NCBI GenBank assembly: GCA_019096065.1
Contig: JAGUCH010000001.1
Location: forward strand, 5,208,001 to 5,272,000
Length of the DNA stretch: 64,000 nucleotides
Direction: 5' to 3'
Source: Paracyclopina nana
Taxonomy: Eukaryota; Arthropoda; Copepoda; Cyclopoida; Cyclopettidae
The notes below the pieces were generated by a model, which searched no databases, was not told the DNA's origin, and saw only the letters and a list, made by a program, of their open reading frames with translations. A program made the translations under genes and the position numbers. This document shows positions 21,860 through 64,000 of the stretch, one piece after another (positions within the stretch are counted from its first letter, which is position 1; each line of letters opens with the position of its first letter).

Positions 21860-21861
21860 AC

Positions 21862-22444
21862 GATTTTATATGATGGAAAGTAATTTTCAAATGTTAATGA
21901 AGTTACCAGACCAGGCAATCTTGACTTAGCATTTGATCCATTACTTTGAGGGCTTGGGTTGAGAGGCCTTCAGTAGTGCAAGAGTAGCTGAAAGTGTTAA
22001 TGAATCACTTAAAAAGTGTGCATTTTGAATTTGGCACTTTTTGAAGCTAAAAGATGCGTTAGATCAAGTTTTGTCTGGTATCTTTGATAGAGACTACTCC
22101 TCTGCTGAACTTAGCTCAGCTTAGATGAAGAATAAAAAGTAATTCTAACAACAATTTTTTCTATCTGTATTGGTAGCTCAGTCAGTAGAGCGTCGGATTT
22201 CTAATCTAGATGATCAGGGTTCAAATCCCCATGCATTTTTTCTCCTTTTTTCTGCAATGGGATTTACTTCTTGGACAATATGTGGTCAAACAGAGTAGCA
22301 ACACACCTTATAAAATACTTTATAATGTGTGTCACTTGATAAAGTATAACGTCAGAGCCTTTATATATGTGTAGTTATATGAACTGAGACGAATTGGAAA
22401 ACTGAATTATACATGCGAAAATTACTTTCCATCATATAAAAATC
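21862..22444. mobile_element. 583-bp element with 27-28-bp terminal inverted repeats enclosing a tRNA-like sequence
   Basis: GATTTTATATGATGGAAAGT plus seven more bases at 21,862-21,888 recurs as its reverse complement at 22,417-22,444, differing only by one extra T. Between the repeats lies a degenerate tRNA-Arg-like sequence with Pol III boxes (22,167-22,238). No protein-coding frame. The left end abuts the fold-back element, so the two may be one composite or a nested insertion. No clear target duplication is visible. Confidence 0.55.
22167..22238 (+). pseudogene. tRNA-Arg(TCT)-like pseudogene or SINE head
   Basis: The D arm is intact (GCTC pairs with GAGC, within TAGCTCAGTCAGTAGAGC). The anticodon loop TTTCTAA gives TCT, and box B GGTTCAAATCC is good. 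However, the anticodon stem has a C-A clash, the T stem has two mismatches and the acceptor stem barely pairs. T-rich sequence follows, suitable as a Pol III terminator. It is therefore a decayed tRNA gene or a tRNA-derived SINE promoter rather than a working tRNA. Confidence 0.6.
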
Positions 22445-32844: not shown

Positions 32845-35800
32845 TTATGCTGGGTGCTGGTGCGCCTCTCGCACAAACGCAAGGTTGGCCCGTCCGTGCG
32901 ACTGACCCAGGTCATCAGCTGCCACGTTGACCCGTGCGTCGGCGCGCGTGACCGGCTTGCGGGAGCGCTCCCATCCACCGCGGATGCTCGTGAGGTAGCA
33001 GTCGACGCACGGCAAAACCAGCGGTAGCTTCAGTAGCATCGTCAATCCAGGGACGTAGAGGACATACTGAAAAGAGACGAAAATGTTACTCTGACCTTAG
33101 CCCGTTCAATACCAGCCTTCCACGCACAAACTCGCCCGCCTACTTCGTCTCCCTCCTTTTCCCAATCATCCTACTCGCGACCCAAGCTATGGCAGCCAAG
33201 GTAAGTGTTACTTTCGGTAAAACGTATCGTTCCGGAGCAATCTTTTATTCTAATTAGGCTTTGAAGCGGCTCTTCGTGAACCTCGTGTTGCTCCTCATCG
33301 TGTCCTTGCCATTTCTGTACTACTCATTTTTGGGCGTCCCCCCGAAGAATGGGTTTTATTGCAATGACGAGACGATCGGCCATCCGTACAAGCCGTCCAC
33401 CGTCCCGTCGCACACGGCCATGATCCTGGGGCTGTCGGTGCCCTTTGTCATCATTAGCGCCGTCGAGGGGCTGCTGCTCCCCTACTTGCGCAAAAGTAAC
33501 AATTCTCGTTTAGCGTAGCCGGTTTGAACCGGATTCACCGTTCGCCAATTGTATAGGTGGGCTACGCAACGTGGAGCGGTCCGCATGGGTGACCATGATT
33601 CTGGGCTACTCCTTCGGGGCCGCGGCGAGCCACAGCTTGGTAACCATCGCGAAATTCACTGTGGGCAGACTCAGGCCTCATTTTTTCGACGTCTGCAGAC
33701 CGAACTATGAGGCCTTGGATTGTGGCACGGACACGCACCCCAAGTTCATCACCGACTACGAATGCAAGGGCAACCTGGGCTTCTTCCGCGGCGGCATGGA
33801 CCACGCCATCCACGAGGCTCACGTCAGCTTCGTGTCCGGACATTCGAGCTTCATGTTCCAGGCCGCCACCTTTCTCGCCCTCTACTTGCAGGCCAGAGTG
33901 TCCAATTACAACTTTCGACTGGGACTGCTCTTAGGTGAATCTACTACTGGCTTTGCAATCTTTAGCCTCGCAACTTATGTTATATTTTTTACGTTGCAGT
34001 TCCCACCATCCAACTGGCCGCATTCGCGTTGGCCTTCTGGGTCGCCCTAACTAGAGTCAAGGATCACATGCATCATCCTGGTGATGTGATAGCTGGAGCA
34101 CTCATTGGAACTGTTGTGCAGGTAATTGATCGCAACTTTTTTGCCCAAGCCCCATTGTTGTATGGCCCTTTTCTCCGCATAGTTGTTCAATGTTGTGGCC
34201 TTCATGAGATTATTTGCGAAGAAATCAACTGCCGAAGAGCAGGAGCAAGTTGAGGAGGAGGAAAAGGCCATGGCTGGAACTGCCAAGTCCCACTACACGC
34301 CATTGCTGGCTTCCACTCCTTGAACTTGGTATGTTACCTGAAACGTTGGCGGGACGGAGCAACTTGGGGCATGAATGTAGGGCCATCCGTAGAACATGTC
34401 ATGAGCGCAGGCAAAAATCAGACAAATCCATCCCAACTTGGATTGAATAAACGCAAATTCTTTCCACGTCAGTGTGTTTGTCACCGATGGCAGCGACGTT
34501 ATGCCCAAGAGCACCGCCAAAGCATATGAAAATACTCCTGAAATTGTAACAAGTTTGACTTTGAAATACATCCGCACTATCACGACAAAACAGCAGTCGA
34601 AGGTACGATCTTTTATTTCTTTAATTAAGTGGCTACTAGCTATGAATTACCGTCTAAATTCCGCATCTGATTTACTTTTTTCAAAAATGCATGCGCGCCT
34701 TAGAATAATGTGGTCAAATGTCGAGATAAGAAATTGCCATGACGAATTGTTGGCTTAAAGGTAACAACCAATCGATTTGTCAGTTTGCGCCAACTGAGTT
34801 TGCATTGAAAAGCAAATTTTCATGCTAAATAAGAATTATATGGCATTCAAAGCAAGATTCATGAAGCTAGCTTTAATTGGGCATATTTCAAACAAAGGCT
34901 TAAAAGCCATGAAATCTTGATAAGAAACTACTATTGTATAGCATTTGAGGACGAAAATGATATTTAATCTCCCTTTGACGTTTGCCTACGTCCCTAAGCG
35001 AGAGTACAGTGGCAATTTGCAACTATTTTCGCGGGTTTTCTAGTCAGTTGTCAACCCTGAAGGGGCTATAGCAGAGTTTGGAGCAAGAGATAAATTCCTA
35101 ATTGTTGGACGTGGTACACGAGCCGCTGTCATGGTCGCAAAATCGCACCACGTGCAGCCAAGGTTAAATGAGGATCTGTCCACGCCGTCACACAAAAAGC
35201 GTCGTCGTTTTGACGTCAATTGAAAATGCAATCATGACTGTTGATCAATTATTACCTGCCGCCAAGAAACACTCGCCCCGCCAGTGCATAGGCTCCGACC
35301 CGTAGATCTTGACCTTTTGATCATTGACCACCTCGGATGCAGTCCAATTGAACTTTTGGTTCACGTTCGCGATGATTTCGACCGGGTCACCATAGGCCAA
35401 TGGGTATTGGGTCGGTGACATGACAGCCACGGACATACAGAACTATAAACGCGAGAGCCAATTTAATTTCTTAATTGGTATTTGATTAATAGCTGCTGCA
35501 CTCACGTGTACGGATGCGGAAAATAGCATCAGCAGACCCAACTGTTTGCGCATTTTGAGCCATTTATCCAGCCAGTTGGGAAAACGCGAGTACTTGGTAC
35601 CGCGGAATATCTGAAAGTATGCTGCAATAACTCCAGGCAAGTAGCAGAGGGCCAGCATGTTCAATGCGTGTCCAGCTAGAGCAGAGTTGACGGTGGTGAT
35701 GGGAATCGTCTCAAAGCGACCCCAATGCCAGCCTTTCCACGAGTCCCAGCTGAGAGTCCAGCAAATTTGGTACCTGAAACAGCATTCCATTAAAAATAGT

Positions 35801-37303
35801 TGACATTATAAAAATGCCAGGACATGTATCGATACATGCACCGGTTGCAAAAGAAGGCATTTATGAAAGCCTGCCACAACCGCAGGGTGAACATTAAAAA
35901 TGTATCCCCTCATTGTTGCTGGCTACCATACTGGTTGTTCTACTCACTTGCTGAATGCTAGCAGGAATAATACGACAAACAAAACTGTTGAAATGATGAA
36001 TGGTATCTTCCACTTGGGAAACCTTTGAACAGGAATATCTTCAATCTCCCGGGCATTTCTGAGAGATCCACGGTCCACCGGAGTAAACCCTAGAGACCTG
36101 ATCAATTGGTGAACTTCTTCTTTGGCGGCGTGGACGTCTCCAGCATAAAACACCTCCTTGCTACCCTGAATTCCGCCAGTCTCAAGAGCATACGCTGAGA
36201 GGACGTTGAACGCTTTCACGACAGCCGATCGAGGTAGCAAGGACTGCAAAAATTCTGCCTGAGATTCTCCTTTACGATACAGGCTGTTTCGGTTGCTGAC
36301 ATCGATCACAACTTTGCCCTCCAATAAATGTAAAGGTTGGCTTTCGTAGAAAGCCTTGGGGACTGCCAAAACGACGATGTTGCTGGTGCTGAGCTTCACG
36401 GCCTCCTCTGTGCTCATTAGCTTTGCTCCGACTTGATTCACCAGTGCCCTTAAACGAATAATTTGATTGACGTAAATGTGCATTCTATGCGGTTTTCATG
36501 TTTCTCGCAAAAATCGCAACGGATGGTTGATTGAGATGGAAAGTCCTTTTTACTCTATGTCTCCAAATTAAGTGCTTGCAACAAGTGTTCTTCTATCGCG
36601 ACGATGTCACAAAACAACTTTCGGAAAAAAATAAACACAATGCGCTTTCAGCACATGTTTTGCAGCAATAGTTCTTTTTTTTTGGTGAGGCCTATCAGAC
36701 GTAGAAGCTTGACAAAGGACCCAAATGACTCATGCTACAGCCAAGAATAGTCATGCTGGAAATAATATATTTTCGCTTTCAGAAGTGTAGCTATTAGGTA
36801 TAAGGTATCGATCTAAATTCATGAGGAAGAAGAACAACGAAATTTTACGAATATACATAGCTATTTCCAGTCATAAAAATGGCCACACGCGATATGAGCT
36901 CGCGTATTGGGCCATTATCGAACAAGGTTGCTTTTCATTAGCGGCACAACTACTTGCATGGCATGAATTTAAATCATACATGGGTGCCCCTTGGGAAAGC
37001 GGCGTTGCCAAGCAACAAGTCTAGACTGGGCTAATTTATCATTGCTTACTCGTTTCTGCCAGGATCTCGAGATCCTATGTTGACCGTGTACCCGCTTTGT
37101 ACAAGCCTCAGAGCCAGAGCTCTTCCAAAGTCTCCACTGCCTATGATGGCAATGCTCTCTGAGGATGTGGTGGCCTCTGAGGTGGAGGATACTGAGCTCA
37201 GGGTGTCAGCTCCGCTATCGAGGCCCGAGCTCTTGGACTCAAAGTGAGTCAGCGAAATGGCGGTGCTGCTTTGGTTCTTCTTCTTCATACTTGACGACCA
37301 CAT
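32845..37303 (-). CDS. STEAP-family metalloreductase
   Basis: Six-transmembrane ferric/cupric reductase that passes electrons from NADPH through FAD and one haem across endosomal or plasma membranes. Exons in transcript order: 37303-37050, 36448-35948, 35773-35506, 35442-35256, 34537-34338, 33066-32845. All phases agree, giving 543 aa. The N-terminus is a serine-rich leader, then a Rossmann fold with IAIIGSGDFG (51-60). The oxidoreductase part contains VVKAFNVLSAYALETGG. The membrane part contains FRGTKYSRFPNWLDKWLKMR and SLPSVTNTLTWKEFAFIQS. His341 (end of exon 3, SASVH) and His449 (FACAHDMFYGW) match the two haem ligands of the family. The last exon supplies the final membrane segment and RGGWERS, matching the vertebrate C-terminus. 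An upstream Met at about 37,366 is possible; I chose 37,303 because a CAG acceptor lies just before it. A complete phosphatase gene sits in the last intron. Confidence 0.92.
33189..34323 (+). CDS. phospholipid phosphatase (PAP2/LPP, Wunen-like), nested in STEAP intron
   Basis: Integral membrane lipid phosphatase of the type 2 phosphatidic acid phosphatase family, which dephosphorylates lipid phosphates such as lysophosphatidate and sphingosine-1-phosphate on the outer face. Exons: 33189-33200, 33258-33495, 33557-33934, 34000-34121, 34183-34323; 296 aa, the usual family length. The three catalytic motifs are present: K-x6-RP as KFTVGRLRP (116-124), SGH at 177-179 (in FVSGHSS), and SRxxDxxHHxxDV as TRVKDHMHHPGDV (227-239). 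The start is MAAK in a four-codon first exon with a GTAAGT donor. The whole gene lies within the last STEAP intron (33,067-34,337) on the opposite strand. Introns are only about 57-66 nt. A GPI or ectodomain extension is absent. Confidence 0.93.
34446..34451 (+). promoter_or_regulatory. poly(A) signal of the nested phosphatase gene
   Basis: AATAAA 123 nt after the phosphatase stop. It lies inside STEAP exon 5 (34,338-34,537) on the opposite strand. If used, the phosphatase 3' UTR is antisense to STEAP coding sequence. Confidence 0.6.
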
Positions 37304-40085
37304 TTCCAACTGCACCTTACGAAAAAAGAAGCACTTGTCAAGTATAGGTGTTTCGTAAGTGTACACTCCTGCCGAAAAGAGGGTGCGCTTGTTCTGCGCT
37401 ACGCTATGCGCAGCGCGAGCTCTAATGGAGCCCCTGCCTTATACCTGCATGGATTTCACTAAAAAACCGTGGCTAGGCCTGGAATCGATCCCGACCCGAA
37501 AACTCGCTTCGGGCTTTTTCAACATCTCCCAGTTTTTTCTAGACTCAACGCCTTTACGCAACAGTCAGGTTTTACATGATGCCAACAATTTGACATTTAA
37601 AAGCCATTTCATTGCTGTGATGTAATGGAAACTCCAGTTGGGCAGTCAAGTGAGGCATACTTTTTTTACCGGTTATGTAAACCCAGTCAGCTGGATGCTA
37701 CGGAGTACAGCTGCTACATGGCAGAAGCTTGATAAGATCACATTTTTATAGTGATCTGCTACTTGAAGAGTGTCAATTGGAGCCATTCAACTAGAAAAAC
37801 AGTCATTTATGGCTCGTTGCGCGAAAACAACACGATTTATAAAAAAGACACGCAACGTGAGGATTCCTAATTATCCGTCCTTACGTGCAAAAATTGTCGA
37901 ATTTTCTAAGTTCTGCGAAGTAATAAAAAATTTCTATATCGGTCTATCTCGAAAGTTGGGGGGTTCATCGTGAATCCTAACCGTAAGAAGTGGTGGCCAT
38001 TCCCACTCTCGCGCGAACTGTATATAAAGAAATGGAGGAGGTCACCGTTTGAGGATGGGCGCGTGAAATTGATTGAACATAAACAGTAATCACATAGATA
38101 AGCGAATTCCTACCAAACTTGTCACAATGCGTCGCGCTTACCTATTATAAATGATCAAAATAATGATGCTGAATATGGACTGATGATGCAGTGCCTTGCA
38201 TAGGCCAATCACTCGCTTCTTTAACGAAGGACTTGATTCTGCCTACTGAACATCCAACTGCATGTGCGCACATTATTGCGACCAAGCGCGTTTTATTTTG
38301 CTCAGTGCTCGATCTCGGCCAAGGCAACGTTTAAACACGCTTTGTCACTTTCGACAAATATAAATGCCAATTTATCATTTACATCGTTAAAATGATGTCA
38401 AAAGAGTATCTTTGATTGGCGGATCAATAAAACGCATAATTAACAGAAGAATTCCGCTTAATTCTTCATAGTGTTTCCGGCCTCAAATAACGAGCCTACA
38501 GATCAAACGCACCTTAAAGTCAATGTCATTTTAAAAGATAGGTTATGCCTGAAAGGCCTATATGGTGGTTAGTTTCATTAGCTTTTTGCTTCAAGCTTCT
38601 CGAACAAAGTTTCCAAAGAAGTACTGTAGTTACTACATGCTTCGGCAACGCTGGCTTTTTATCGTGCAGGTATTTTTCGGCAGTTGACGCTTGCCTGCTG
38701 GTTGCAGTCCACCAATTTTGCCTGTTACATAACGTGTACAGGTTATGAAACCTCCGATTTTACGATCTCTCTGAGGAACTTTTTTCTTCATCTCGTCGCA
38801 CCGTGATGCCTTAGCTCCGCTTTTAAAACATATTTATGAGCCAAAAAGCTCAATTCATTTTTCAAGAAAGATGTCAAGCTATGTTGTGTCACACACGTCA
38901 GTACATGAGATTTAGGGACTGGCTGAATACATCGTATATAGCATGAATAATCTTCCATTGAGATTTTCATCATTTTCAGCTAAACAATTGAATGAGAAAT
39001 AATGTTCCCTTTTTCTGTTATGACATTTTAAAGCTCTGTGGTTTTGTGGGTCATGTTTTTTTTCATGCGCCCAACCCAAATTTTGAGCTCTAAACTGTTC
39101 TGCTTAATGTCATAGCACCATATGCATAACTGATATGTGTGTAAACAAGAGCACATTGGCAAACTCATAGTTCTTCCATTCTATTTAACTCTTCTTCAAA
39201 TTTAAAAAATGAAAATAATAGATTTGGTTACCTCGCATGTAATTTATTCGGGATTGTAGGCACATCATAAATGGGCTCGTCTGAAGATTGTATGCGCAAA
39301 AGAACAGCAAATTCAGGAGTTCCTCAAAAATTAGATATCCTCCATATTTCTTACCATAAAAAGGGACCTTGAGGCTTTGATTTCATCAACCTCGTCAGAA
39401 TAACCATAAGCTTTGCTATTCTATTCACGCAAATTTTTTCTTTGTTCGCTCAAGACAAATTGCCCAAAATGTACATGGCCATTTTATGTAACTTTTGCCA
39501 TTTTATAAAGCATGCAAAATGTACCTTTACTAGTTCCGCAAAAATACCTTATTCACATTTTTTTCAATGAAAACACTTGAATATTCTTTTTGAAGGTAGT
39601 AGCTAACTAAAGTTATCATAGTATAGCTAAGAAATTTCGTTTCACTATAAGTCTTCGTGCGTAGCGTGTGAGGTTGCGTTGTCCACGCTAGATTCTTGCG
39701 CTAATAAAGCCGCACACGATTTTTGATGGCAATCTCTGTAAATCAGCTCAAACACAAAGAGGCATTGAAAAAGATGTCTTTGAAAAGGAAAAAGTGAAAA
39801 CTCTTATCCATCACATCTTGTTGGCTGTGCAATAATGTTTCAGTTGAAAAGCTGATTTCAGAGCGAGTACACCGATACATGACAATCATTGCTTTAACTC
39901 GCAGAACCTATCAAGTCAACAATAAAAGTACGAGTAATACAGCAAAGAAAGCGAAGCAAGGAATAAAAGTAAGGCTTTTACAATTCACTTTCTCCATTCA
40001 AGAATTTCTTTGAAGAGTGAACAATTACACTGAAGCTGTATTTAATTTACAAAAAGCAATATCTTACACCGTACAAGTATTTCAG
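37304..40085. other. intergenic region between STEAP and the spaetzle-like gene
   Basis: The two genes are divergent, so both promoters should lie here. No additional coding exon is recognised. TATATAAAG at about 38,020 on the plus strand is a TATA-like candidate. A pyrimidine tract plus CAG directly before 40,086 suggests that the spaetzle-like transcript has an upstream non-coding exon in this stretch. Confidence 0.5.
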
Positions 40086-47158: not shown

Positions 47159-47164
47159 TTTATT
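47159..47164 (-). promoter_or_regulatory. poly(A) signal overlapping the recombinase stop codon
   Basis: The gene-strand sequence CCAAATAAAC contains AATAAA, and its TAA is the stop codon itself (47,160-47,162). If used, the 3' UTR is only some 15-30 nt. Confidence 0.5.
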
Positions 47165-48825
47165 TGGCTTTCTTGAATATCATTTCAGCAAGATTCAATC
47201 GACTTTGCATTCCTTGAAAGTAAATTTCCTGATTTTGAGCAGCAAGTTGCTGTTCTCTGCGAAGTAGTGCCTCAATTGATGACTCATTTGTTCTTAAACT
47301 TGGTTCCTCATGATCTTGGCTTAAGATTAGCATTTTGTGGCCTTTTTCTTCCTTATCAATTTCCTCCTTTGTCGTACCTGCATCAGGAGGATCCTCATTG
47401 ACAAAGTTATCCTCATGCTTCTCATCTGGATCATTTGTGGCAATGATCTCATCAGCTTCATCTTGGACAAACTGTTTCTCAGAGGCATCACTTGTAATTG
47501 TAGCTGATGGCATTGGCTTTTTGGCATTAGGAGGATCCATATCAATGAACTCTTCACAATCCAAAGAAGCAGAACCAGCCATCTCATTGGTAGTGGCCAT
47601 GCTCACAAGTTCAGCCCCTCCATTAACAATAGCACGAGCCATTTCCATTTGCCTTTTAAGTGTAGGCTTAGGATCATAATGAGCAAGAGTTTCAAGAGAC
47701 TTGTGGCCTGAAATGCTTGATATTTCCCTGTCTTCAGCTCCAGATCTCTTGAGCAGGCGAATTGAAGTGGGCCTGACTTGAGCATTTATGATCCTTGGTA
47801 TACCTATGGCATTGGAGAGCTCTGGCAGGGCTTTCCCCACTTGAGAAGGCCCAATTTTCGTCTTTTCATACCAAACATTTGGATTGGCAAAGAGGTTGAA
47901 ATGTTGAGATTTCCTTTTTGGCCTCGTGAAAATCAAGGCAGACTCTGGAGGAAGCTTTTCCAGATATCTTTGAATGAAGTCACCAGGATTAAATCCCATG
48001 GCATTCTCCTCAAACAAGACTATGCCTCCAGTTTCCAGGTCTTCATCATCATCCCTATGGTTTTTGGAGTACTCTCCAATAACCTTTTTAAAGTACTTCT
48101 TTCCAGAGTTTGGATCTTCTTGGAGCTGAATATGGCTCTTGGTGAGCTGGTCAATACCTTCTCTTCCTCTCCTTGCAAACTATATAGATAAAAGTAATTG
48201 AGTTTTCAGTCGTTTATTAAATGTTCCATTCATTTACCTGGCTAAGAATGACGAAAATCACTCCATATTGGACAAGATAGTGATATTGTGACCTCATATT
48301 TTGAGGCAGAGCTGACAATTTTGCCTCGAATTCGATATCACTCTCATCCATTACCATGAGATCAGAGAGAATGCTCAAGAACTCATAAATCCTCTCTAGA
48401 GATGTAGCTGGGATTTCAGGCCTATGACTTGTGTCAGACTTGCCTAGCTTTTTCAAACTTACAAAGTAAGTCTTCATGAAGGCGCAAAACTTGGAAAAAG
48501 TGCCACAATTTCCAATGTCCAGCTCCCCCTCAGACTTTTGAAGCAACAGCATCTTGATGTGACTCTTATGAAGCTCCACTGTGTTCTTTTTTGGGACTTC
48601 TTTTGTTGCCTTAACTCTCATGGAATGAAAATACTTGATCAACAGGGACTCAAGCTCATCTTTCTTCTTTATAAGAGCCTCCAGGGTTGAAAATCCGCTT
48701 TCGTGAGCAAATTTGGCAAAACATTTTTCCACGGTAGCCTTACTTCTTAAGGTCGAGGAGCAGCGCCCACTTGTTAGCACCATTTCGTCAATTTCTTCCT
48801 CATCAACTTCAACGTGAAAAGGCAT
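47160..48825 (-). CDS. Crypton/KIAA1958-like tyrosine recombinase domain protein
   Basis: A protein with the tyrosine-recombinase fold of Crypton transposons and their domesticated animal relatives (DUF3504/KIAA1958 group). Exons: 48825-48238 and 48179-47160, phase 0, 535 aa; the 58-nt intron is GT-AG. The N-terminal 200 residues look like the helical core-binding region. The catalytic part starts at exon 2: FARRGREG (arginine motif, about 197-204), then QVRPTSIR (Arg332), SGHKS (His355) and AHYDP (nucleophile Tyr364, nine residues after the His). The usual HxxR histidine is replaced by Ala329 (NAQVR). An acidic C-terminal tail of about 150 residues ends in a helical segment. The frame is intact, with no stops. 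It could be a mobile Crypton copy or a domesticated gene. Start chosen at MPFHVEVDEEE; an in-frame upstream extension to 48,957 lacks that character. Confidence 0.8.
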
Positions 48826-49049: not shown

Positions 49050-49210
49050 AGTAATAGGATTATACACCTCTAGGCTGTCGGATAACACTCATTATTTTTT
49101 AGTGTCTCGTGACAATCACTCGTTCGCTCCGCTCACTCGTGATCTGTCACTTGACACTAAAAAATAATTCGTGTTATCCTCCAGCCTAGAGGTGTATAAT
49201 CCTATATTAC
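49050..49210. mobile_element. near-perfect palindromic (fold-back) element
   Basis: Left arm about 49,050-49,114 and right arm about 49,145-49,210 are reverse complements. Shared words are ATTATACACCTCTAGGCTG, GGATAACAC and ATTATTTTTTAGTGTC. Mismatches are few. The short centre (ATCACTCGTTCGCTCC...ACTCGTGAT) is itself partly self-complementary. No coding capacity; MITE-like hairpin. Confidence 0.7.
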
Positions 49211-49692: not shown

Positions 49693-49881
49693 TCCCTACC
49701 TCCTCAGCAAAAGTTAGACCCCAAGAAAAATCCCTGAGAGGTCGGGAAAAATTTGAGAACCGAGCAACTATTTTTCATCCGAGCGCAGCGAGGAAATGAA
49801 AAATGTGCGAGGTTCTCAAATTTTTCCCGGCCGATCAGGGATTTTTCGCGGGGTCTAACTTTTGCTGAGGGTGGTAGGGAT
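49693..49881. mobile_element. second palindromic element
   Basis: Arms of about 80-85 nt at 49,693-49,778 and 49,800-49,881 are reverse complements. Shared words are CTCAGCAAAAGTTAGACCCC, GAAAAATCCCTGA, CGGGAAAAATTTGAGAAC and TTTTTCAT. The centre is CCGAGCGCAGCGAGGA. A different family from the palindrome at 49,050, by sequence. Confidence 0.7.
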
Positions 49882-49885
49882 TCAT

Positions 49886-50925
49886 TTTTCTCTAACAGTA
49901 ACCGAAAATCCCAGGTTTGTTGAAATTCCAAGACAAGCTCGACCTACTATTTCGATCCATCATACTTTGATCCCAGTAGCGGATCTCAGCTGAGTCTCTG
50001 ACAACAAGTTGACGCCATTACTGATTACGCTGCAAGTGCAGTGTTACAAAACTTTAACTGCAAATTGAGGCTGCTCAAGACCAAGACAGCAATTTGAGGC
50101 TCCCACACCCGGCAGCGTCCCCAGCACCCAGCAGCGTCTACCCCACCCGGCTGCGTCTCCCCCACCCTGGAGCGTCTCCCCAACCTGGCACCGTCTCGCA
50201 CCCGGCAGCGTCTCCACACCCGGCAGCGTCTCCACACCCGGCAGCATCTCCCGATCTCCCGCACCCGGCAGCGTCTCCACACCCGGCAGCGTCTCCCGCA
50301 CCCAGCAGCGGTTTTTTTACTTCAACTTGAGGCTGCTCAAGACCAAGACGGCAATTTGAGGCTCCCGAACCCGGCAGCGTCCCCCGCACCCAGAAGCGTC
50401 TCCCCCACCCGGCAGCGTCTCCCCCACCTGGCAGCGTCTCTCGCGCCTGGCAGGATCTCCACACCTGGCAGCGTTTCCACTACCGGCAGCATCTCCCGAT
50501 CTCCCGCACCCAGCAGCGTCTCCCCACCTGGCAGCGTCTACCGCACCCGGCAGCGTCTCCCCACCCGGCAGCGTCTCCCCGCACACAGCAGCGTCTTTAC
50601 TGCAAATATTGAGGCTGCTCAAGACCAAGACGGCAATTTGAAGCTCCCGCACCCGGAAGCGTCTTCCGCCCCTAGCAGCGTTTCCCGCATCTGGCAGCAT
50701 CTCCCGCACACGGCAGCAACTCCATCACATAGTGGCTACTCAAGGCTACAAATTGTGTGGGAAAAAAATTCGCCAGGTGATTTTTTTTCCCGGGAAAAAA
50801 ATTCCCCTGGTTAATTCTTTTCCCAATGTATTTGTTTACATTTTGTCTTGGTAGAGAAATAAACTGAGAACTATTTGGAAATTGAAACCTAACCAGGGAT
50901 TTTCGGTTACCGGTAGAGAAAATTT
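49886..50925. repeat. inverted-repeat pair bracketing the minisatellite
   Basis: About 35 nt at 49,884-49,918 (TTTTTCTCTAACAGTAACCG, then AAAATCCCAGG) is repeated in inverse orientation at about 50,888-50,922 (CCAGGGATTTTCGGTTACCG, then GTAGAGAAAAT). The pair encloses the whole GC-rich minisatellite, suggesting that the array lies inside, or was captured by, a larger repeat unit. Confidence 0.5.
50065..50720. repeat. GC-rich 18-bp minisatellite in three higher-order blocks
   Basis: The basic unit is close to ACACCCGGCAGCGTCTCC, with many one- to three-base variants. Three blocks each begin with a unique header (TTGAGGCTGCTCAAGACCAA followed by GACGGCAATTTGAGGCTCCC) at about 50,065, 50,327 and 50,609, so the super-unit is about 260-280 bp. 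Because the unit is a multiple of three, several frames stay open on both strands and give periodic HPAASP-type translations; I do not take these as genes. Confidence 0.85.
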
Positions 50926-51919: not shown

Positions 51920-54900
51920 ATGGTGAGTGTCGCACATCTATACGTATTCATTTGACCGATGGTGTTTTTTCAGATGTCCGGCATCATGCTCAGCCCCAAA
52001 GTGCAGCGCATGCAGCGCTCCATCCGCATCAACGACGGCCAGCTTCTGGGCCTGGCCGAAAAGGCCAGATACGACTCGAGGCTGGCAGGGTTCTTGTACA
52101 AGAGGTGCGCGGACAACAACAAGTGGTTGCTGCGGTGGTTCAGACTCTACCAGGTACTTGCCGCTACGCTGCAGTTAAGGGAAAGCCACTTGTATGGTTG
52201 CAAATTTCAGAACTTGATGTTCTACTACGACAGCGAGCAGTCTGTCAAGCCGATCGGTGTCATTTTCCTCGAGGGTTGCTACTGCGAGCGGGTGCTTAAC
52301 CCTTCCACTGGAACCACTTCTGGCTCGTCCTCCGCTATGACCGGCAACAAGACCGACCATAATCGATTGGCAGAGAAGATGGTAGTAGCTCTAATGCTCT
52401 CACCAATAGCCATCATCATGATGTCGAAATTATTCCCTTTTTGATTTTAGTATTGCTTTGCCATCATGTATCGCCGCGAGAATCAAAGACAGTATGAGCT
52501 GCGAGCTGACACAGCCTCCGAGTGCAAGGCGTGGATTGACGGTATCAAAATGGCCAGCTTCAACAAACTTCATCTCCAAATGGAGGAGTTGGAGCAAAAG
52601 CATCTGCACCTTCTGCAGGTCGTGGAGAGTGAGAAGACCGCTAAGTGGCAGTATACCCAGCATTGCGAGGAACTGACGGAGGAGATCAAGAAGCTACGGA
52701 CCGAGGTAAAGCCATTTCAGCTTGATTACCAAATTGCTCATAAATTCAGCTGAGAGAAACCGTAAACTCTGCTGTAAAGAGAGAGAGAGAGAGAGAGAGC
52801 GGCAGAAATGACTGTAGAAAGCTCGCACTAATGTAGTAGTAGCCTCTGCTATATTTTCGCAGCGAACTACTTTTTAGCATCCAAAATAGCGGCAGCATGC
52901 ATCAACTTGAGCGATGGTGTCAAGGAAAGCAGGCACCAAAGTTAAAACTGACGATGAGCTTCGAGCGAACCGAGAAAGTCTGGTTTGACTGGCACCATCA
53001 ACTTGTTGCATCACAGCTAACTTTTCTACTCCACAGTAGGCATACGAAACAAGTGCGAGCCTGTAGCCTTGCGCATTTCAACACCTCAACACCCAAGTTT
53101 TCAAAATTCAATACCTTTTAGATTCACTACTTCGCGAGTCTTGCAGCTGCTTCAGGGTTCCTTGCTCTTTTACCATAACGGATATTGCATTTAGAATTCT
53201 ATTATGCCAGCCCTTCTTCCCACAGTCGCGAATGCTGCTCGAAAGGAGCAAACTACTACGTATTTCCCCTCACTCATCGATGATGCTCAATATTCGTACG
53301 CAGCTTTTTTAACAAGCACAATGATAGACAATTTGGGTAGCTGTCTAATTGAGTATATTTTACCATGCAGCTGTTTGCCCTGAAAAAGGAATGGCGACTT
53401 TTGCCTCAAGTGTCAAAATCTACCACCAGTAGTCAAGAGTGTGACAAAAGCGAAGAAGACGAGGATCCTGACATTGCCAAGATTAAAAAGGTTCAAAGTT
53501 TCTTCAGAGGCTGGCTTTGCCGACGTCGTTGGAAGCAAATCGTCGAGGAATACATTCGCTCACCTCATGCAGAAAGCATGCGAAAACGAAACTGGTGAGC
53601 ATACACAAAAATGCGGTACGAGGTCCGTTTGTTAGAGGGAGTGGGGGAAATCACAATTTGCCTACTCTCGAACTTTTTTCATCGCGAAAGCTATTCCACC
53701 TGCAAGGAGATTCGGTTTCTAATTTATGAGAGCATAATTTATGCGTGCTTCACATTCGTAGCCTAATATCATAGATGGTGTAGAATCGCAAGCTGCGTGT
53801 TTTTCTCTTGGTTTCAATTAGTCATTGATTGTTGTTCATCATCCATTTACTAGCTTGGTGTTTCGAATGGTTGAGGCCGAGGAGGAATATGTGGAGCAGC
53901 TGGAAATCCTGATCTCCTGCTTCCTTCGACCATTCAAGATGGCCGCCTCAAGCAAGAATCCCCCTTGCACTCACGAAGACATCAACTCCATCTTCCTCAA
54001 CAGCGAGACTGTGCTATTCTTGCACCAGATCTTTCTCAAGGGCTTGACTGCTCGCATGGAGTCCTGGCCCACCCTGGTTTTGGGTACGTCTCTAGGTGGG
54101 GACCAATTTTTTAAAAGCGGTGGTGCACGGCGGGACGGAGGGTCATGAGGGTCAACGGCTGATAACTTGATGTGGCTGTGCCTTACATTACGAATGTCGA
54201 TGTTGATTTTTGTGACAAAACTGGCCTTGACCTTCGCCGTCGTCCTAGTCGTTTTGCCCATCGTGATCAAGTTCTAGGCCTGCTGATGGTTATCGTATAG
54301 AATATCAACACCTTTTTGGCTGCTGCCGCCACTACTTATGCCGTAGACTGCATTGAGTGGAGTCTGCTTTCGTGTAGTTTTTTGTGCACAGGGGGTTGCG
54401 ATCATGCTTCTTTATGATTATCTGAGTTTCATGGTTTTTGCTATGACAGGCCTACTCTATGCTGATCGCTGCTGCCTCTTCACTTAAGCTAAAAGGGTGA
54501 GGGACACCTGTAATTCCTAACGGTGCTCTAATTTTTGGTACTGTAGAGCTGTTTGTTAATTGAGCTGTTTAGGGCTCGCAACTAAGATTTTTGCTTTTTT
54601 GTCTTTGCTGTTTTGAAGTCGTGCTCTGTCGAATATGATATGAGCGATGCACTTACAAATCAGAAAATCCGCTACATTAATTTTTCAACCTTGAAAGCTT
54701 TTTGCGTAAGTTTTACGTTATGTATTAGGAACGTGCTTTATTGTTTACTACTTGAGTACGTTTAGTCGGCAAGCACAAAGAGTTTCAATGTAGTAGTTTG
54801 TGTAACATATTGTATTAAAGAGCGACAATTTGGAACACGCACAATTAGCTTGGTAGGTAAAAGCATTTAATGTAGATGTCAAAGAGGAAGTGAGATGTAT

Positions 54901-57900
54901 AATTATTCCAACTTTCGGCCCTTTCAAACTTGGCGTGCCTAAGACATGACATAAAAACTTTCCATTTTACAGGAGTAATCTTTCCTTTTAGCCAATTTTT
55001 CTGTACACTTAGACAGAATGCGCTTTCATAAAAGGCTTTTTTCTTCTCACGCAAAAATTGCTGTTTTGTTCTGAATTATCTTAAAAATGCAATGAAACGG
55101 ACCATGGAACACGCGCCATAAAAAGTTCTACCACACCACTTTCGGGTTGCCACCATGCTCACTGCTTTTATGAAAGACAGTTCCAATTTTAGCTGCCGCG
55201 CAGATTCTTTCGAAAAAAGATGAAAGAACCATATTTGTCTATGCCTTGGTATAGCTTTGCTGTTTTTCTTCTTTCACTTAAACAAAAAAGAAAGCTCTCA
55301 TTCAAAAGTTGCATGGTCGCGACGTTAATTAACGATTAGCTCGCTACCTGGAGCTTATTCGCCCATTCTTCTCGTTAACTTGCTCTCCTAAATTACTTTG
55401 TTATTACAAAAGCCAATCTTCACCTAATCTCACCTCTCGTAAAAAATATACCTAATTTTTGAACTGCACTCATGAGCATTATTTTTGCTTGCTCATGCTC
55501 ACTTAGTTAGTTTTTCTATTGTAGCTTCTTAATGCTTTTAAAATGGCTAGAATATCATGAAGTACTAACCATGCTCTCACCATCTGTTGAAACCAGGTGA
55601 CCTTTTTGACATGCTGCTTCCCATGTTGAGTATCTACCAGGAGTATGTGAGGAACCACCACTACTGTCTGCAGGTTGGTATTTGGCGAAAGCGCGACTTA
55701 CGCTCTTGGCATGCCTATTATATGCTCAATTATCGTAGGTGTTGACAGAATGCAAGCAAAGCCCCATGTTTGGATCTCTTCTGAACCGTTTGGAAAAGAA
55801 ACCTGCTTGTAAGGGAAGGTCTCTGGAGACTTTCTTGACGTATCCAATGCATCAGGTATTTAATTGTTAAGCTGTCTCTCTCGCTCGCTTGTTTGTTTGT
55901 GCTCATTAATTACTTCCAGATCCCTCGTTACATCATAACTCTGCATGAACTTCTCGCTCACACTCCGCCTGATCACGTGGAGAAAAAGTCCCTCGAACAT
56001 GCCAGGAAGCAGCTCGAGGACCTTTCCAGGCAAATGCACGATGAGGTAAATGACTTACAATATCGTTGTTCTTCTGGACTATCATTGCTGCAATGACTAA
56101 TTTTCAGGTGAGCGAGACGGAAAATATTCGGAAAAACTTGGCAATCGAGCGTATGATAGTGGAGGGCTGCGATATCTTGCTCGATGTCAACCAGATGTTT
56201 GTCAGACAAGGTACTTTGGTGCAAATCCTCCCCGCAGGTCACAGGAGCGGAGCCCGAGGTCGTCTGACAATCGGCCGTGAAAAGGAGCGAGAGGCTGTCC
56301 GACAATGCTTTCTTTTCTCCAACCATCTGATCATCACTTCGAGGACTCAAGGGGGAAAGCTTCACCTGGTTGAAAATGTCGGGAAAATTCCCCTTGCTGA
56401 TATCACCCTAATTGAAGATCCTAACGAGGAGGAGCGAACCGAGGAGCCTGGTAAGTAAGAGCGTTTCATAACGCTGATGTTATAACGTACTAACGTCAGA
56501 AAAATAGTGTTTCTCTTTGACGTGAGCCATACGTGCTGTTGCTTTATCGTGGGTGTAAAACTCTTTTGACTAAGCTAATTAGGCCTCTTTTGCTTCTTAT
56601 TCAATAAGTGGCTATCCTAATGATGACAGCCATCACCTTTCTAGCCTACTAGATGAGGCTTGCATGAAGAATGTACGCAGGTTTGCTTCCATTTTGGAAG
56701 TAAGGCATATTTTTACAATGGAGCTATGTTGAGAATTTGGGCTTAATGTGATCAAAGACTTCTATTGGTTCTACATTTTTTCGCCAAGTTGCTCCAACTT
56801 TTCTCGCAAGGACCTCCAAGGATCATTCTGAGCAGAGCTTTATATTAGCTAGTACAAAAGTTGAAGGCGCTGCCAGAGACAAGCAAATAAAAGATACTTT
56901 TTGGCCTTTGATGAAACTACTAAGCACGAAACTTGCAGAATCTCCCTGCTCGAGCCACAGTGGCTCCTTGAGTGACATGAGCACGGAAAGCAATGGAAGC
57001 TTCTCAAAGGCCGAGCACCGATCCCTGGACTTCAAGCTGATTGTTGACGATGTAAAAACTGGTCAGCAGGTATAGGCTAATTGAACTTAAATCCAGAAGT
57101 ACCAGCATTAATTTCTATTCCTCTTAGATCTCAATTCACTTGGTCACGCCTACTCGCCAGGAGAAAGCAGCTTGGATCACGGATATCTCACAAGTGAGGA
57201 AGTAACATTTTGTGTTTTCCTCGAAAAATAGTCTTTTTTCTCCTTGTATGTTTAGTGCATGGACAATGTTCACTTTAATGGGCTCTTCTACAATACAATG
57301 CCCAACGCAAACTCGTCTACGTTGCCTCAGTGCGTCAAGAGCGATCCAAACCTCTTCAAGGACGATGTTGACATAAGATTCTCCAAAACATTCAACACTT
57401 GCAAGGTAAGCCTGTTAATCTCAGGAAATTGGCTGGTGACGATAGTCCTGCTACGCAGTAGGCGCGCTAAATTACGTATCACAAGGTTATAAATACTTTT
57501 TTAATTAAGGGCTGGCGATGATAATTGGCTTAGCAGAGCTACTTTAGTGATAGCGCTTTTTCTCCCGGTATACTATTTGTGCTTTTAGATACCGCAAATT
57601 CGCTATGCCACGCCTGAGAGGCTGTTGCAACGGTTGACCGATTTGCGGTTCCTAAACATCGACTTCCTCAATACGTTTCTGCTGACGTATCGAGTCTTCA
57701 CGGATGGCATTACCGTCCTTGAGGCCCTCAAGAGTGTGTTTTTCCAACCAGAGCCCACAGACTCGCCCACCAGCTCCAACGGGTAAGATTCCAAATACTC
57801 CAGCTCAAGGAGGCACTCGTTGACAACATCGAGGGGATTTTCCAGGTCTTTGGAAAATCTGCACCGCGAGGACGGCGACAATGGCTTACAGGCAGCTTCT

Positions 57901-60900
57901 GTGGCTGCCACTCATAACGTCAATGAAACCTTAGCTGCAACACTCGAAGGCAAACGACGAATCAGCACCTGCTCAGGATACAGCACCGCAACAGGTTCAT
58001 ATGCCAGTCGCGCGCGTTATACCTATCGTTAGATCTTGTAGAGCCCCCATTTCCCCTCCAAATTCATTGAAGCTTTCTAAACAGAATTGTTTTGAGCAAA
58101 GCTTTTTTGGATTATGTTGGCTGTTTTTCGTGCATCTCGCCTTCACTTTGTGCTCACAATTTTTTTTCAGACAATGGAGTTTGTTTAGGATACGATCGAG
58201 CTCGAATTGGATGTGTAAGTCCTCGGCGAATTAGCGGTGCTTCATCCATTTCAGGTTACTATTCTGATGACCGGGATGGAGGAGGCCGCTCATCCTTCAG
58301 CCAAGTAGGGTTTGATATCAGCTTTTCTAGTCGGTTTTCTAGCTCCCAGTATTTCAGGACTCGTCCTCCTCATTTTTGGGTGCTCATAAAAGCCAGCACT
58401 GGAGATACAGCTTCAGAAAATGTGAGTGTTTTTTTGCCTTTTCCCAGAAGGTTGACGTCATTTTGTCTCCTTTATGTTCAAAGTAGCTCTGAGATGAAAA
58501 GCTTTTAGCCTTTTGCTAATTCAATATATACTAGCCTAAAAACCTGCAGCCTGTCATAGATGAAGCAGGCTTATCATCTTGCTGTTCAGTTAAATGCTTT
58601 CGCCCTTTATTAAATAAAGCCAAATTGCCAAACACTGAAAAATAGCCTTTCTTGATAGGCCATATAAGTTTGTGAGTATATGATCAACTAGCGTCGGCGT
58701 TGAATTTCTGCACTCGAGGAAGGCGAGCTTATCGCAGGTTGTTTTAGTACTTTCATTGATGTAGTTGAATTTACTTTATTATGATTGTGTGAGTGGCTCG
58801 GCCAACGGTCCTCGCAAATTGTATTCTTTATCAATGGACGTAGATCTTCCTGGCTATTTTTTTGCGTCTGCTTGCAATTACGTTTTTGTAGACGAAGAGG
58901 AGCAAAGAGAGTCTGCCAATCAGCAGCACCATCACAGTCTATTTGTTGCGGAAACATCATCTTCCTCTACAAGGCACCACGCCAGGAGCTCAATTACATC
59001 TTTACAAGCTCCCATGGGATCATCGGCGCAAGGAAGATCAGGCTCGCACGACTCAGGCGGATCAAGGTAGTTTTAGCCATTTCTTTTGAGGTGTTTTCAA
59101 TCTATTTTGATTCACCTCCTAGATCCGGCTCCATTGTTTCTTCCTCTGCCATGTGGAGGAAAGAGTCTGTGACGATTCCAGAGAAGGCCGAAGATGTGGA
59201 CGAGGATGAGGACGAAAGCATCCTACCCCGTGAGCCAGTAACAGCTACGACTTTAAGCGAGCCTCGCGTTGAGTTGCAGCCAGTTCCTACCAGAGTGTCC
59301 TCCGAGGTGAAAACGGCTGAAAAAGACCTGCTAGCATCCGAAGTTTCCACCAGGCAGCAGGCTTCGCGGAGACTGTCAGCTTCGGGCAACAGAGTGACCT
59401 CGATGGCTGCTAAGGTTATGCGAAGGGCATCATCGGGAGGAGATGCCGCCTCAGTCGATGAAAATTTTCTGACCGTTCCCCAAACTGTGACAGCTTCGTC
59501 GAGTGCCGAAACTTTAACTGGTACATTGCTTCGAAATTCCCTATAGTTTTGCCTCTAGCTGCTTCTCTCTACGCAGATAATACTCTGACCGGACCACCAA
59601 CTCCTACGAGCATAAGCGTAACTTTAATTCCCAGCTCTCCTTCGACCTCTGTAGCTCCATCGGACCTTGGGGGCCCTGCTGCATCCGTTACCTACACGAA
59701 CGAAGGCCGGTCAACCATGTCGATTGGCATGGCCTTGACCATGACTCCTGTGACTGCAAGGAAGAAGTCGGCTGAGGGGAGGGACTTGCTGAAAGCTATG
59801 CATAAGCCTCCGAGTATTGACGAACCGTCAAACGTGAGTTGATTGCTGAGCCTACAGTATTTGCTTTATTGCTACTCAAATCATCCCCATGCTGGAAATC
59901 CCTTTAAACCGCGACTGCTTTCTTCCTCTAGTCAGCCATTAAGTCAAGTTCAGCGGCTTCGAGTGGTGGCAAAAAGGCTTCCATTGGTCAATTACCGGTC
60001 TCTTCGTCGTGTGTCGCCAAAGGCCGAAATCGTAGTACCTCAACCTTTTCGACAGCCTCGTCGGCCTCGGCGTGCTTTGCTTTTCACCACTTAAATCCCG
60101 ACCCTGAAACTGGCGGAGATGGGAGCGACCTTCCCATGGCTTGTCAGCAGGCCTCCAAATCCCAGCCCTGCTCGCATCATCCGTCGTTTTCGGGCCCCTC
60201 ATCATCAGGATCCAGGTACTGTCAACCCAATTAAAGTACCACTTGAATCAGTAAGCTTTATCTGGAATTTATTATTGCAGGAACATTTTTAGCGGATTGT
60301 CATTCAAAGACCTGGCTGCAGGAATGAAAAGCCCTACGGTATGACGATATTATTGGAAAGCTTCTATCAAAATGACTTTTTTGGTTTCATATTTCTTTAC
60401 TCCAGAGAGAGATGAAAAAGCGGAAAGGCTTCTTTCAAAGGCCCTCGGCCAACTCGGAAGAGGTTCAAGCCTCAAGTGGAGGTTCTCCGTTGACCAGCCC
60501 TCAACATAAAGTGGGTGTTGTTATCACTTCCTCTCGACAGGCACATCGCAGGTACAAAGGCCAATCTAATTAAATTCTCTGCAAACGCTTTGCTTGCGAG
60601 GAGTCGAGTGACGCGGTAGTTAGAAACATCTTGGGGGGAGATTTCTAATTTCACTAATGCAGCCATCTTCTTCGTGAAAACCAAGCTTCTGTTCGTAATA
60701 ACTTCAAAAACGCCTCCGCGTCCAAATGAAAATACTATCTCGATTATTTCCAGAAAAGCAGCCTTCCGAGAGGCTGTGTTATATTTTGTTTTAATGTGTT
60801 TTCTTGTGCTACTACTACTCTTGCATGCGAACTGGAAAATTTTGCTCCCTTGGAATTTTTATTACCCAGCTCTGTACCTCTTCTGACTACTACTTTTCTT

Positions 60901-62329
60901 TCACATCATCATCATATTCTTCCTACATGATTGTAAAAGTAACTACAGAAAACACATGTCTTCTCCTGCGTGAATGATCGAGTCGATTTCGTTCGTGGGG
61001 AGTGTTTTTCAACTTTAACTCACTACTTCGCAGCAACAAAAAGAAAGATGGCCACGAAAACCACTGCAAGCCTAAGGCGGAGAAAAAAGCCCATCAAGAT
61101 TCCAAATTTCCCGCCACAGACGGAGTCAGTCTTGAATATTTTTTGTCCGAATTGTCAGACGATGATAATGCATCATGGTAAGGAAAAGTTGAGCAAAACT
61201 CTTTTCTTCACTACTCTTCTTCTTGCTGGGACCATCAAATTTGCAAAAAGCTCATATAGTAGCTAACATTGTTCTTCTGTGTACTATACAGTTTTCCTGC
61301 CAGAAGGTGAGTTGGAAAATAATCAGAGCCGAAGATCCCAATTAAAAGTTTGGAAACGAGACTCCATAAACTTGCTAAGCCAATGAGGGGATATATGAGA
61401 CTATCTCACTAACATTTTCCCTCTACCACTAGTACTGTACTCTATCTATTACATGCAAGAAATCCCCTGAGCTACAGCGACTCATTTTTTCACATCTGTC
61501 TTTCCGGATGATAAATTGTACATTGTATGTACTATAGCAGGGCGTGTACCGCCTCTTGTCATCATATCTGCACACTTCAAGCATGCCTTTTCTGCACAGG
61601 AATTTGCATGCGCATGCCATTTACGACAGCGACACAGTGACAACCGAATTTACGAGGCTTTGCCCAGGGAACCTTTTTCCGTTGCAGCACCACGTCGTTC
61701 ATAACTTAACATCTTTTTATTATAACTGCTGCTTCTAATCATTCTTCATGCATTCACTTTACTCTTTTCTTATGCCACTTTAACTATATAAACTTAGGAC
61801 GTCTCTCTATAAATAATCATGCATCTCTTGTATCATACATTAATAGGCTATGATCTATTCGCCACCCGATGGTTGCTGTAACGCTTTTGTAATTTCTAGG
61901 TCTAGCTCTGCTTCGGCTGCTGTGGCTTTCGCAGTGGCCACAGCCGGATCTGGAAATCCTCCGGACCATGGGCCGCCGAACCGTAGGGGTGAAAACTTTC
62001 GAGATGCGGCTAAACGCAAATGCTCCATCACCAGCAATGTATCTACCTTACGAGTTCTTAGCGTGCTTCGACATTGGGTCACCAAACACTCGCAGGTTCG
62101 TATATCCTCCTTACCTTCTACCAGCATGATCAAAATAACTTTTTACTAGGACTTTGAGTCGAATCCAAGGCTGAAGAATTTGACCATCGAGTTTTTAGAG
62201 GACATAATTTGCACTCCGACCCTATTGCCTTCTGAACACCGAGCGTCGTCGCAGCTTCTGAGGATGCTGACGAAGGATGAACCATCCAGAATCAAGATTA
62301 ACTTGGACGAGCTACTCACTCCCATTCAA
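51920..62329 (+). CDS. RasGRF-type guanine nucleotide exchange factor, CDC25 domain not present in window
   Basis: Calcium/calmodulin-responsive Ras/Rac exchange factor. Exons: 51920-51922, 51974-52153, 52211-52381, 52451-52705, 53371-53594, 53854-54083, 55597-55673, 55739-55855, 55920-56045, 56108-56450, 56939-57069, 57128-57193, 57256-57405, 57589-57782, 57846-57994, 58171-58421, 58765-59066, 59123-59520, 59577-59833, 59932-60215, 60281-60338, 60406-60551, 61034-61177, 61292-61306, 61900-62095, 62150-62329. Phases agree, 1549 aa so far. Domains: PH1 (1-140), coiled coil, IQ ([16 protein letters not shown], about 240-258), DH (280-465, with [20 protein letters not shown] and [14 protein letters not shown]), PH2 (470-650), REM ([20 protein letters not shown], about 715), a long serine-rich linker, then [11 protein letters not shown] to LDELLTPIQ. 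The Ras-catalytic CDC25 domain should follow the final GTAAGA donor but is absent. Exon 17 start is the weakest call. Confidence 0.9.
52779..52799. repeat. (GA)n dinucleotide repeat
   Basis: About ten GA units in the RasGRF intron between exons 4 and 5. A simple microsatellite. Confidence 0.9.
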
Positions 62330-62359
62330 GTAAGATTTATGGCTGGCTTTAGCCGACTT

Positions 62360-63283
62360 TCATTGCGGTGGGTTTTCACTCCGTGGGGATATTTTAGTAC
62401 CAATCGCATCTTTGGAATTTTCCACAGCCTTGACAATGCGCTGGGGAAATCTTCCATCCACGATCCAAATATTAGCGTCGTGTCTTTGGCACATTCTTGA
62501 GGCAGCTTCTAGCTTTAATTTAATGCCTCCAGTGACGTCTATATTCTCGTCATGATGCAGTCCTGGCAAAAGGTCACCTGGGTGCCACTTGGGAATTAAC
62601 TCGGTTCCGGACTCCCATGGAGGAAGCGTCATTAAACCTGCAGCACCGGTCATAGCAAAGATCATGTGGACTCTCTGAAAAGGGGCCTAAATTAAGCTTA
62701 GCGTAAATAATTGTTTTCAAGCGAGTTGAGTTGCCTTTTGTGGATCAGCCTCTAATACCAGCCTAGTAGCGATGTCGTCTCCGCTTAAGATGCCAAACAT
62801 CTTCTCCCCTTCGACTTTGACCACGTCTCCATGGAGGATGGGTAGGCATCCAGTCTCCACGGTTTGAAAGACATGCTCCAGACTTCCCTTGAAGTTGCTG
62901 CCTGTGTTCGTCGCCCAATTGTGAGGGTGCAACGATACGCAATGTAGACCTGCGTTTTCCAGACTATGTTGTACTATCGTACTAAGAGTTTGCATGTCTT
63001 GCTGAACCGCCTCGACAGCCTCTTCTTGGCCCTTTAGTCCGATTGAGTGTGGTTGTGGCTCATTACTCTCATGCACCTTGCCTAGATGGAGCTTCCATTC
63101 CTTTGCCTTTAAGTGACCAAAACTACCGGCTCCGTGAACTACTATAACTTGGCATCGTTTCAACTCGACCAACTCTTTGACAGCTTTACTGATTGCGTCA
63201 ATCCTTGGCAAATCAGCTTGACACATTTGTGATTTGAGTGTTATTAGGCCCCCTCCATATTTGATGACGACCAGATCGGACAT
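62360..63283 (-). CDS. isopentenyl phosphate kinase
   Basis: Amino-acid-kinase-fold enzyme that phosphorylates isopentenyl phosphate to isopentenyl diphosphate with ATP, the last step of the alternative mevalonate route or a salvage step. Exons 63283-62735 and 62674-62360, 287 aa, the normal family length. Motifs: VIKYGGGLIT (6-15, phosphate-binding lysine), VVHGAGSFGH (48-57, with the family's catalytic His57), PILHGDVV (148-155), FGILSGDDIATRL (163-175), then after the intron FAMTGAAGLMTLPP and IDVTGGIKLKLEAA. The 60-nt intron begins with GC (AAAG|GCAACT) and ends TTTTCAG, phase 0; reading through instead would stop after five codons. The stop lies only 30 bp from the last RasGRF exon on the other strand. 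The ATG is 232 bp from the start of the next plus-strand gene, suggesting a shared promoter. Confidence 0.92.
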
Positions 63284-63515
63284 CTTTTAACCTGGGGGAG
63301 AATGTAGTGGAACTTGTTTGAGCTACGACTGTGCACTAGCAGGCTTCAGCGCATCTACTCTTCCTGCTTTGTTCTCTTTTGGCTAGGGCAGACCTTCTTC
63401 GCAGTAGTTGCGCTACTGTGCTCAATTCGGAGCCAGTCTTTTACTGCTTTCCCCCTGCTAGCAACAAGGAAGGTGAATTCAGCTGATTTTAGACATAAGT
63501 ACACATAAAGTCACC

Positions 63516-64000
63516 ATGCCTGGAGGTTTCTTTGACCGGGCCTTGAAGGGGAGCAGCAATGACAGCAATCCTGGTGCTGCCCCGGACCCATCACACAAGT
63601 CCTGGCTGTCCGTTCTGTCAAACCAACCTCGGAGGCCATCTGTGGGCTTTTCTAACAATCTGTCCGGAGAAGCAGCTCCCATGGATGAGGACTCGAACGG
63701 TAGCGATGATACTAGTGGATACAAGTCCGGAATCGTCATACCCAAGACCTTCTTTAGCTATGAAACGTCAGACACTCCTTCTCCAGGAGAGGATTCGGTA
63801 TTTGGCATGGGTAACATGGCCATCAAAGCTGCCGTGGACAATAACAGCCCCGGGGCCTACTTGAAGGTCACGGAGCAAGGAGTCGTCCAGTTGGACCATG
63901 TTGCGTCCTCGGAGATCGCTCAGTTTGAAGCAAGAAGCTCGCAGATCGTTCGGCCGAATGGCTTATCCGACATTGTGACGACCGCCATATCAATTGGTGA
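63516..64000 (+). CDS. 5' part of an unrecognised gene, running off the window
   Basis: An ATG in good context (CACCATG) opens 161 codons without a stop or convincing splice donor to the end of the window. The protein begins MPGGFFDRALKGSSNDSNPG. The first 90 residues are polar and rich in S, N, D, G and P, suggesting an unstructured N-terminus. Later residues (AYLKVTEQGVVQLDHVASSE, QFEARSSQIV) look folded. No signal peptide or membrane segment. I do not recognise the family. It does not resemble a RasGEF catalytic domain, so it is not the missing end of RasGRF. It is head-to-head with the isopentenyl phosphate kinase gene. Confidence 0.7.
   Translation, partial: MPGGFFDRALKGSSNDSNPGAAPDPSHKSWLSVLSNQPRRPSVGFSNNLSGEAAPMDEDSNGSDDTSGYKSGIVIPKTFFSYETSDTPSPGEDSVFGMGNMAIKAAVDNNSPGAYLKVTEQGVVQLDHVASSEIAQFEARSSQIVRPNGLSDIVTTAISIG

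Follow-up and report, generated by a model that had tools for sequence, protein, structure and literature searches.

A RasGRF gene visible up to a splice donor ahead of its expected CDC25 domain, and an adjoining isopentenyl phosphate kinase gene in the reverse orientation

Genes and features at the locus

The window, that is, the whole stretch of DNA analysed (64 kb), is animal-type DNA with many short introns, and towards its right-hand end lie a RasGRF gene model, a complete kinase gene that runs the other way and the beginning of another, predicted plus-strand gene. The features considered here are listed below, with positions counted from the first base of the window.

51974-62329, plus strand: RasGRF gene model, 25 exons, 1,483 stop-free codons; predicted from exon joining, phase check and Pfam
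57589-57782, plus strand: exon with the first REM part; positions 1-62 of the RasGEF_N profile, residues 693-752 (Pfam); control tblastn match at 57,595-57,750
61900-62095, plus strand: exon in which the second part of REM starts; RasGEF_N profile positions 67-99, E 1.2e-5, 25.8 bits
62150-62329, plus strand: last visible RasGRF exon, ending LDELLTPIQ; 180 nt, phase 0 on entry and exit
62330-62335, plus strand: splice donor GTAAGA (CAA|GTAAGA), matrix score 7.23
62360-62674, minus strand: isopentenyl phosphate kinase (IPK) exon 2, with the TGA at 62,362-62,360
62675-62734, minus strand: predicted IPK intron, 60 nt, GC donor and AG acceptor
62735-63283, minus strand: IPK exon 1, with the ATG at 63,283
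63284-63515, no strand: gap of 232 bp between the divergent IPK and plus-strand start codons
63516-63998, plus strand: start of a predicted coding gene, from its open reading frame, codon score and shuffles

Several other features were recorded in the remainder of the window. Pieces of a TRP-channel gene lie on the plus strand at 26382-29279, with ankyrin repeats, TRP_2 and Ion_trans; the piece at 28.6-29.0 kb (143 aa) has a TRP-gamma chain as its best match, with 125 bits as against 81 for TRPC5, and, TRP-gamma being an insect name, this match points to a probable protostome. On the minus strand, 34296-37438 contains F420_oxidored together with weak, sub-cut-off Ferric_reduct fragments, an order which we take to be that of a STEAP-like metalloreductase, and a PAP2 phosphatase fragment (4.7e-13) is found at 33514-34047 on the plus strand. 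A long open reading frame at 47163-48179 on the minus strand weakly resembles tyrosine recombinases, with a sub-cut-off match to Phage_integrase (E 0.0076), and is perhaps a Crypton-like element. The stretches 49054-49205, 49693-49880 and 21662-21870 each match their own reverse complement with 79-84% identity and are fold-back-like. A GC-rich minisatellite of period 19 (CTCCCCACCCGGCAGCGT and variants) occupies 50100-50729, ending roughly 1.2 kb ahead of the RasGRF gene model, and a tRNA-Pro (AGG) is encoded on the minus strand at 17285-17356.

The RasGRF gene model and its domains

The RasGRF model was built manually, with splice sites and the reading frame as guides, and in this predicted model all 25 exons can be joined without a stop codon or a break of phase. 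The first codon was picked by frame and homology, and an extra short 5' exon upstream of it is possible. The 24 introns are short, with a median length of 66 bp, and the longest measures 1,513 bp.

The domain order PH-IQ-DH-PH of the RasGRF family is present in the model. Pfam finds PH in two stretches (4.1e-22), RhoGEF, the DH domain, at 1.4e-38 and a PH of the SOS1/NGEF type (SOS1_NGEF_PH) at 1e-6, and IQ is found at 0.0067, with 16.6 bits and thus under the cut-off of 20.3. Furthermore, both pieces of REM (RasGEF_N), a domain split by an insertion, are present. The second part was obtained by scanning the last two exons alone, with its 25.8 bits set against a cut-off of 28.3 bits, and the RasGEF_N profile has a length of 106 positions. 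Compared by tblastn with approximate human RasGRF fragments, the REM fragments are 67% identical over 52 columns in one case and 40% (39.8%) identical over 88 columns in the other, the latter match running from 62,051 to 62,314 across a 54-nt intron (E 1.1e-17). A truncated form keeping only PH-IQ-DH-PH, which had been proposed when the DNA was first read as one of three options, beside two genes nested in an intron and a chimeric assembly, does not agree with these results, as both REM parts belong to the Ras-GEF half of the protein. In viral contigs, the PH2/REM pattern matched four stretches, none of which encoded a relative.

With regard to the 3' end of the model, the sequence-only reading had described a phase-0 exon ending LDELLTPIQ and followed by GTAAGA, and both are seen at 62,150-62,335. 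To score this donor, a matrix was derived from the 24 donors that precede it in the RasGRF model, with leave-one-out scores for these. It outscores 12 of the 24, and 66 of the 2,991 GT sites on the plus strand of the whole window score as high or higher, so that it is of middle strength and ordinary for this gene. That CDC25 would follow directly after this exon was right in that it is expected close by; the exon stops about a dozen residues short of it, the 2ije match starting at query residue 22, with the exon end placed by the human RasGRF letters ahead of CDC25. The gene is apparently intact up to its last visible exon, and 1,671 bases of the window remain 3' of the donor, up to the end at 64,000.

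The isopentenyl phosphate kinase gene

The stop codon of an opposite-strand kinase gene had been noted thirty bases further on, and the TGA indeed lies exactly 30 bases past the end of the RasGRF exon. The predicted gene is complete, with two exons encoding 287 residues, and its frame runs into a stop codon when left unspliced. From its sequence, this minus-strand gene is assigned to the isopentenyl phosphate kinases. The whole protein matches AA_kinase along the entire Pfam profile (6.7e-23) and scores 143.8 bits against the isopentenyl phosphate kinase equivalog NF040647 of NCBIfam, which has a cut-off of 120 bits. Six of its eight PDB matches are named IPK, the other two being a gamma-glutamyl kinase related protein and FomA, which comes last (4.5e-5). 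The motifs VIKYGGG, TLK, HGAGSFGH, LPILHGD and DVTGGIKLK are present at positions 6, 15, 50, 147 and 229, respectively. The active-site histidine and 11 highly conserved residues, as listed in the available part of PMC3857490, are present in the protein, with its residues matched to the M. jannaschii numbering by eye.

In a scan of prokaryotic contigs, IPK relatives were encoded in 6 of the 14 matched stretches, all of them in archaeal records and with 39-42% identity, and in viral contigs the IPK pattern matched one stretch, which encoded no relative. A prokaryotic contaminant as the source of the gene was ruled out, because the gene requires its intron and sits in spliced eukaryotic surroundings.

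Poly(A)-like signals on the IPK strand were searched for between 61,000 and 62,360. The nearest, a CATAAA variant, is at 62,341, and AATAAA occurs once, at 61,721, which is why antisense overlap of the two transcripts, IPK and RasGRF, is probable whatever RasGRF does next.

The plus-strand open reading frame

A new plus-strand gene had also been read as starting at 63,516, and an ATG is found there, with a frame that stays open to 63,998. When 63,330-64,000 was shuffled 2,000 times with its base composition kept, an open reading frame of at least 174 codons in any frame arose in 8 of the shuffles, and the codon score of the plus-strand frame, trained on RasGRF, is 0.283, the best of the six frames. 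The product has no match in Pfam, NCBIfam or PDB, and its pattern matched four stretches in viral contigs, with no relative encoded in any of them. The 232-bp gap that separates its start codon from that of IPK could possibly be a shared promoter. Joining 62,329 to an acceptor-like sequence at 63,493, closely ahead of the plus-strand ATG, was tried as a splice and rejected: frame 0 stops after one codon.

Search for the CDC25 domain

The sequence-only reading had placed other genes where CDC25 is expected. This applies to the first 1.67 kb past the exon; the farther stretch falls outside the window. Six-frame Pfam searches of 62,330-64,000 with E up to 1 yielded no RasGEF match, the results being the kinase and two matches below the cut-off, DUF2499 and Hex_IIIa. 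Across the whole 64 kb, tblastn with the CDC25 sequences of 2ije and 1bkd as queries gave a best E of 0.12, and a two-sequence CDC25 profile run against all open frames of at least 15 residues gave a best E of 1. By the same tblastn, three RasGRF fragments serving as positive controls were matched at 1.1e-17, 9e-20 and 1.2e-34. It is very unlikely that CDC25 is concealed inside the 64 kb, because the three RasGRF controls matched and the CDC25 queries did not.

Among the matches listed in the literature, as partly available and mostly from outside the subscription journals, there was no report of a loss of CDC25 in RasGRF, and none of the matches listed, likewise available in part, dealt with RasGRF in arthropods, Daphnia or tardigrades.

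Where the catalytic domain is likely to lie

The reading we favour is that the CDC25 exons lie beyond 64,000 and that IPK, perhaps with the next gene too, sits inside one RasGRF intron; on balance, we consider this probable. CDC25 is most likely past the window edge because the last exon ends 1.7 kb from it and IPK adjoins that exon. A position of the CDC25 exons beyond 64,000 is further favoured by the conserved REM, the ordinary donor and the unbroken frame. The gene would then be an ordinary animal RasGRF, probably of a protostome, that is visible only up to the intron ahead of its CDC25 exons. That intron would begin at 62,330, would be more than 1,671 bases long and would enclose the opposite-strand IPK gene and at least the start of the plus-strand gene; the CDC25 exons would be found to the right of 64,000, and the transcript would be spliced across the nested genes. 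The product would be a normal dual exchange factor, with DH acting on Rac/Rho and REM-CDC25 on Ras, and would be controlled by calcium/calmodulin via IQ, these domain functions being known from the vertebrate family. If the nesting is true, the locus holds a routine RasGRF orthologue with intronic genes.

The conservation of REM suggests that CDC25 is still translated together with it, since we know of no use of REM alone. According to the available part of PMC12227644, REM and CDC25 together make up the RAS-GEF domain, and a RASGRF1 construct with CDC25 and without REM did not raise RAS-GTP. The same partly available source states that earlier studies had found the CDC25 of RASGRF1 sufficient without REM, and the tie between the two domains is therefore not absolute.

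No AATAAA occurs on the plus strand of 62,330-64,000, an absence that is weak evidence given an estimated chance expectation of about 0.8 in 1.67 kb; the poly(A)-like variants in this stretch are an ATTAAA at 62,631 and a CATAAA at 63,504. Reading through past the donor gives a low codon score of -0.097 over about 57 codons, as compared with 0.283 for the plus-strand open reading frame and 0.088 for IPK. Against the nesting, an intron that takes in a whole gene and part of a second one would be exceptional for this RasGRF, because the other 24 introns have the short lengths given above. Intronic genes are common: about 6% of Drosophila genes are of this kind, as stated in the available part of PMC3786989.

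An alternative, which appears unlikely, is that RasGRF has lost CDC25 and ends within a few hundred bases of the last visible exon, either with a short last exon that lies antisense to IPK or by reading on past the donor, so that the protein would consist of PH-IQ-DH-PH-REM and act on Rac/Rho only. The failure to match CDC25 in the 64 kb is what a loss would produce, and no more than 30 bases separate the exon from the convergent stop of IPK, such small gaps between neighbouring genes being a property of compact genomes. A candidate last exon can also be drawn: the acceptor at 62,398 scores 5.1, within the range of the RasGRF acceptors (0.7-11.8), and would give a 68-bp intron and a last exon of 11 codons before a stop, with the ATTAAA at 62,631 farther along the same strand. 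However, ten acceptor-like sites in this stretch reach the threshold of 4.1, so that an acceptor at a typical distance is unsurprising, and both the lack of an AATAAA on the plus strand and the low codon score of the read-through speak against an end here. Moreover, REM is kept on either side of a long insertion, which in a gene devoid of CDC25 would need to be a recent survival. The fuller scenario, in which RasGRF shed CDC25, retained REM for another role as a Rac/Rho-only exchange factor and had its 3' end taken by the antisense IPK gene, seems rather doubtful. Were CDC25 truly gone, this would show that REM can persist when its catalytic partner is lost, and that evolution can part the Ras from the Rac/Rho exchange activity of RasGRF.

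It is also improbable that the sequence to the right of about 62,330 is foreign to RasGRF, be it through misassembly or through an intronic genomic break that moved CDC25 elsewhere. The 3-mer distance of 62,330-64,000 from the window mean is 0.197 as against a median of 0.141, exceeding that of 103 out of 125 equally long segments, and to this extent the segment stands apart; however, the value does not leave the spread seen across the window, and genes are densely packed in the segment. Under RasGRF codon usage, IPK and the plus-strand open reading frame both have positive codon scores, each highest in its own frame, no part of 60,000-64,000 recurs elsewhere in the window by blastn (E up to 1e-3), and the sequence is free of Ns, all of which argues against a misjoin and is at the same time compatible with one inside a single genome.

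Finally, a RasGRF joined to CDC25 by trans-splicing, or fused in frame to the plus-strand open reading frame, is highly improbable: acceptor-like sites before 63,945 (score 8.1, like the better RasGRF acceptors, and in frame with both) and at 63,915 (in frame, score 5.0) would allow a fusion, but both lie inside a frame that has an ATG of its own at 63,516, nothing past them in the peptide resembles CDC25, trans-splicing and fusion are rare in conserved genes, and the single tRNA that is the only RNA family over threshold in the window says little on trans-splicing.

Comparison with known systems

In the vertebrate proteins RasGRF1 and RasGRF2, REM is split by an insertion, and the model described here has the same arrangement, with a long insertion. 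The two REM halves are about 640 residues apart in the model, which is more than in human RasGRF. The order PH1-IQ-DH-PH2-REM is likewise shared with vertebrate RasGRF1 and RasGRF2, whose order is given in the available part of PMC12227644. In contrast to these proteins, the CDC25 domain is outside the view, the window ending 1,671 bases past the last exon.

Should the nesting be true, the arrangement would resemble that of Drosophila 2mit, which lies in an intron of timeless2 on the strand opposite to its host gene (PMC3786989, available in part), with the difference that only the near side of the host intron is visible here.

With regard to the IPK gene, its likeness to the IPKs of Archaea, plants and some animals consists of the match along the whole profile, the equivalog score, the names of the PDB matches and the archaeal loci. 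The occurrence of IPK in animals is patchy, as the lobster has the enzyme and insects, nematodes and sponges do not, according to the available part of Dellas et al. (PMC3857490). A sponge as the source of the DNA was considered and discarded on account of this reported absence and of the TRP-gamma match at 28.6-29.0 kb. The gene described here differs in being a spliced animal gene with a predicted 60-nt GC-AG intron, and it would bring one more animal into the scattered record of this alternative mevalonate-pathway enzyme.
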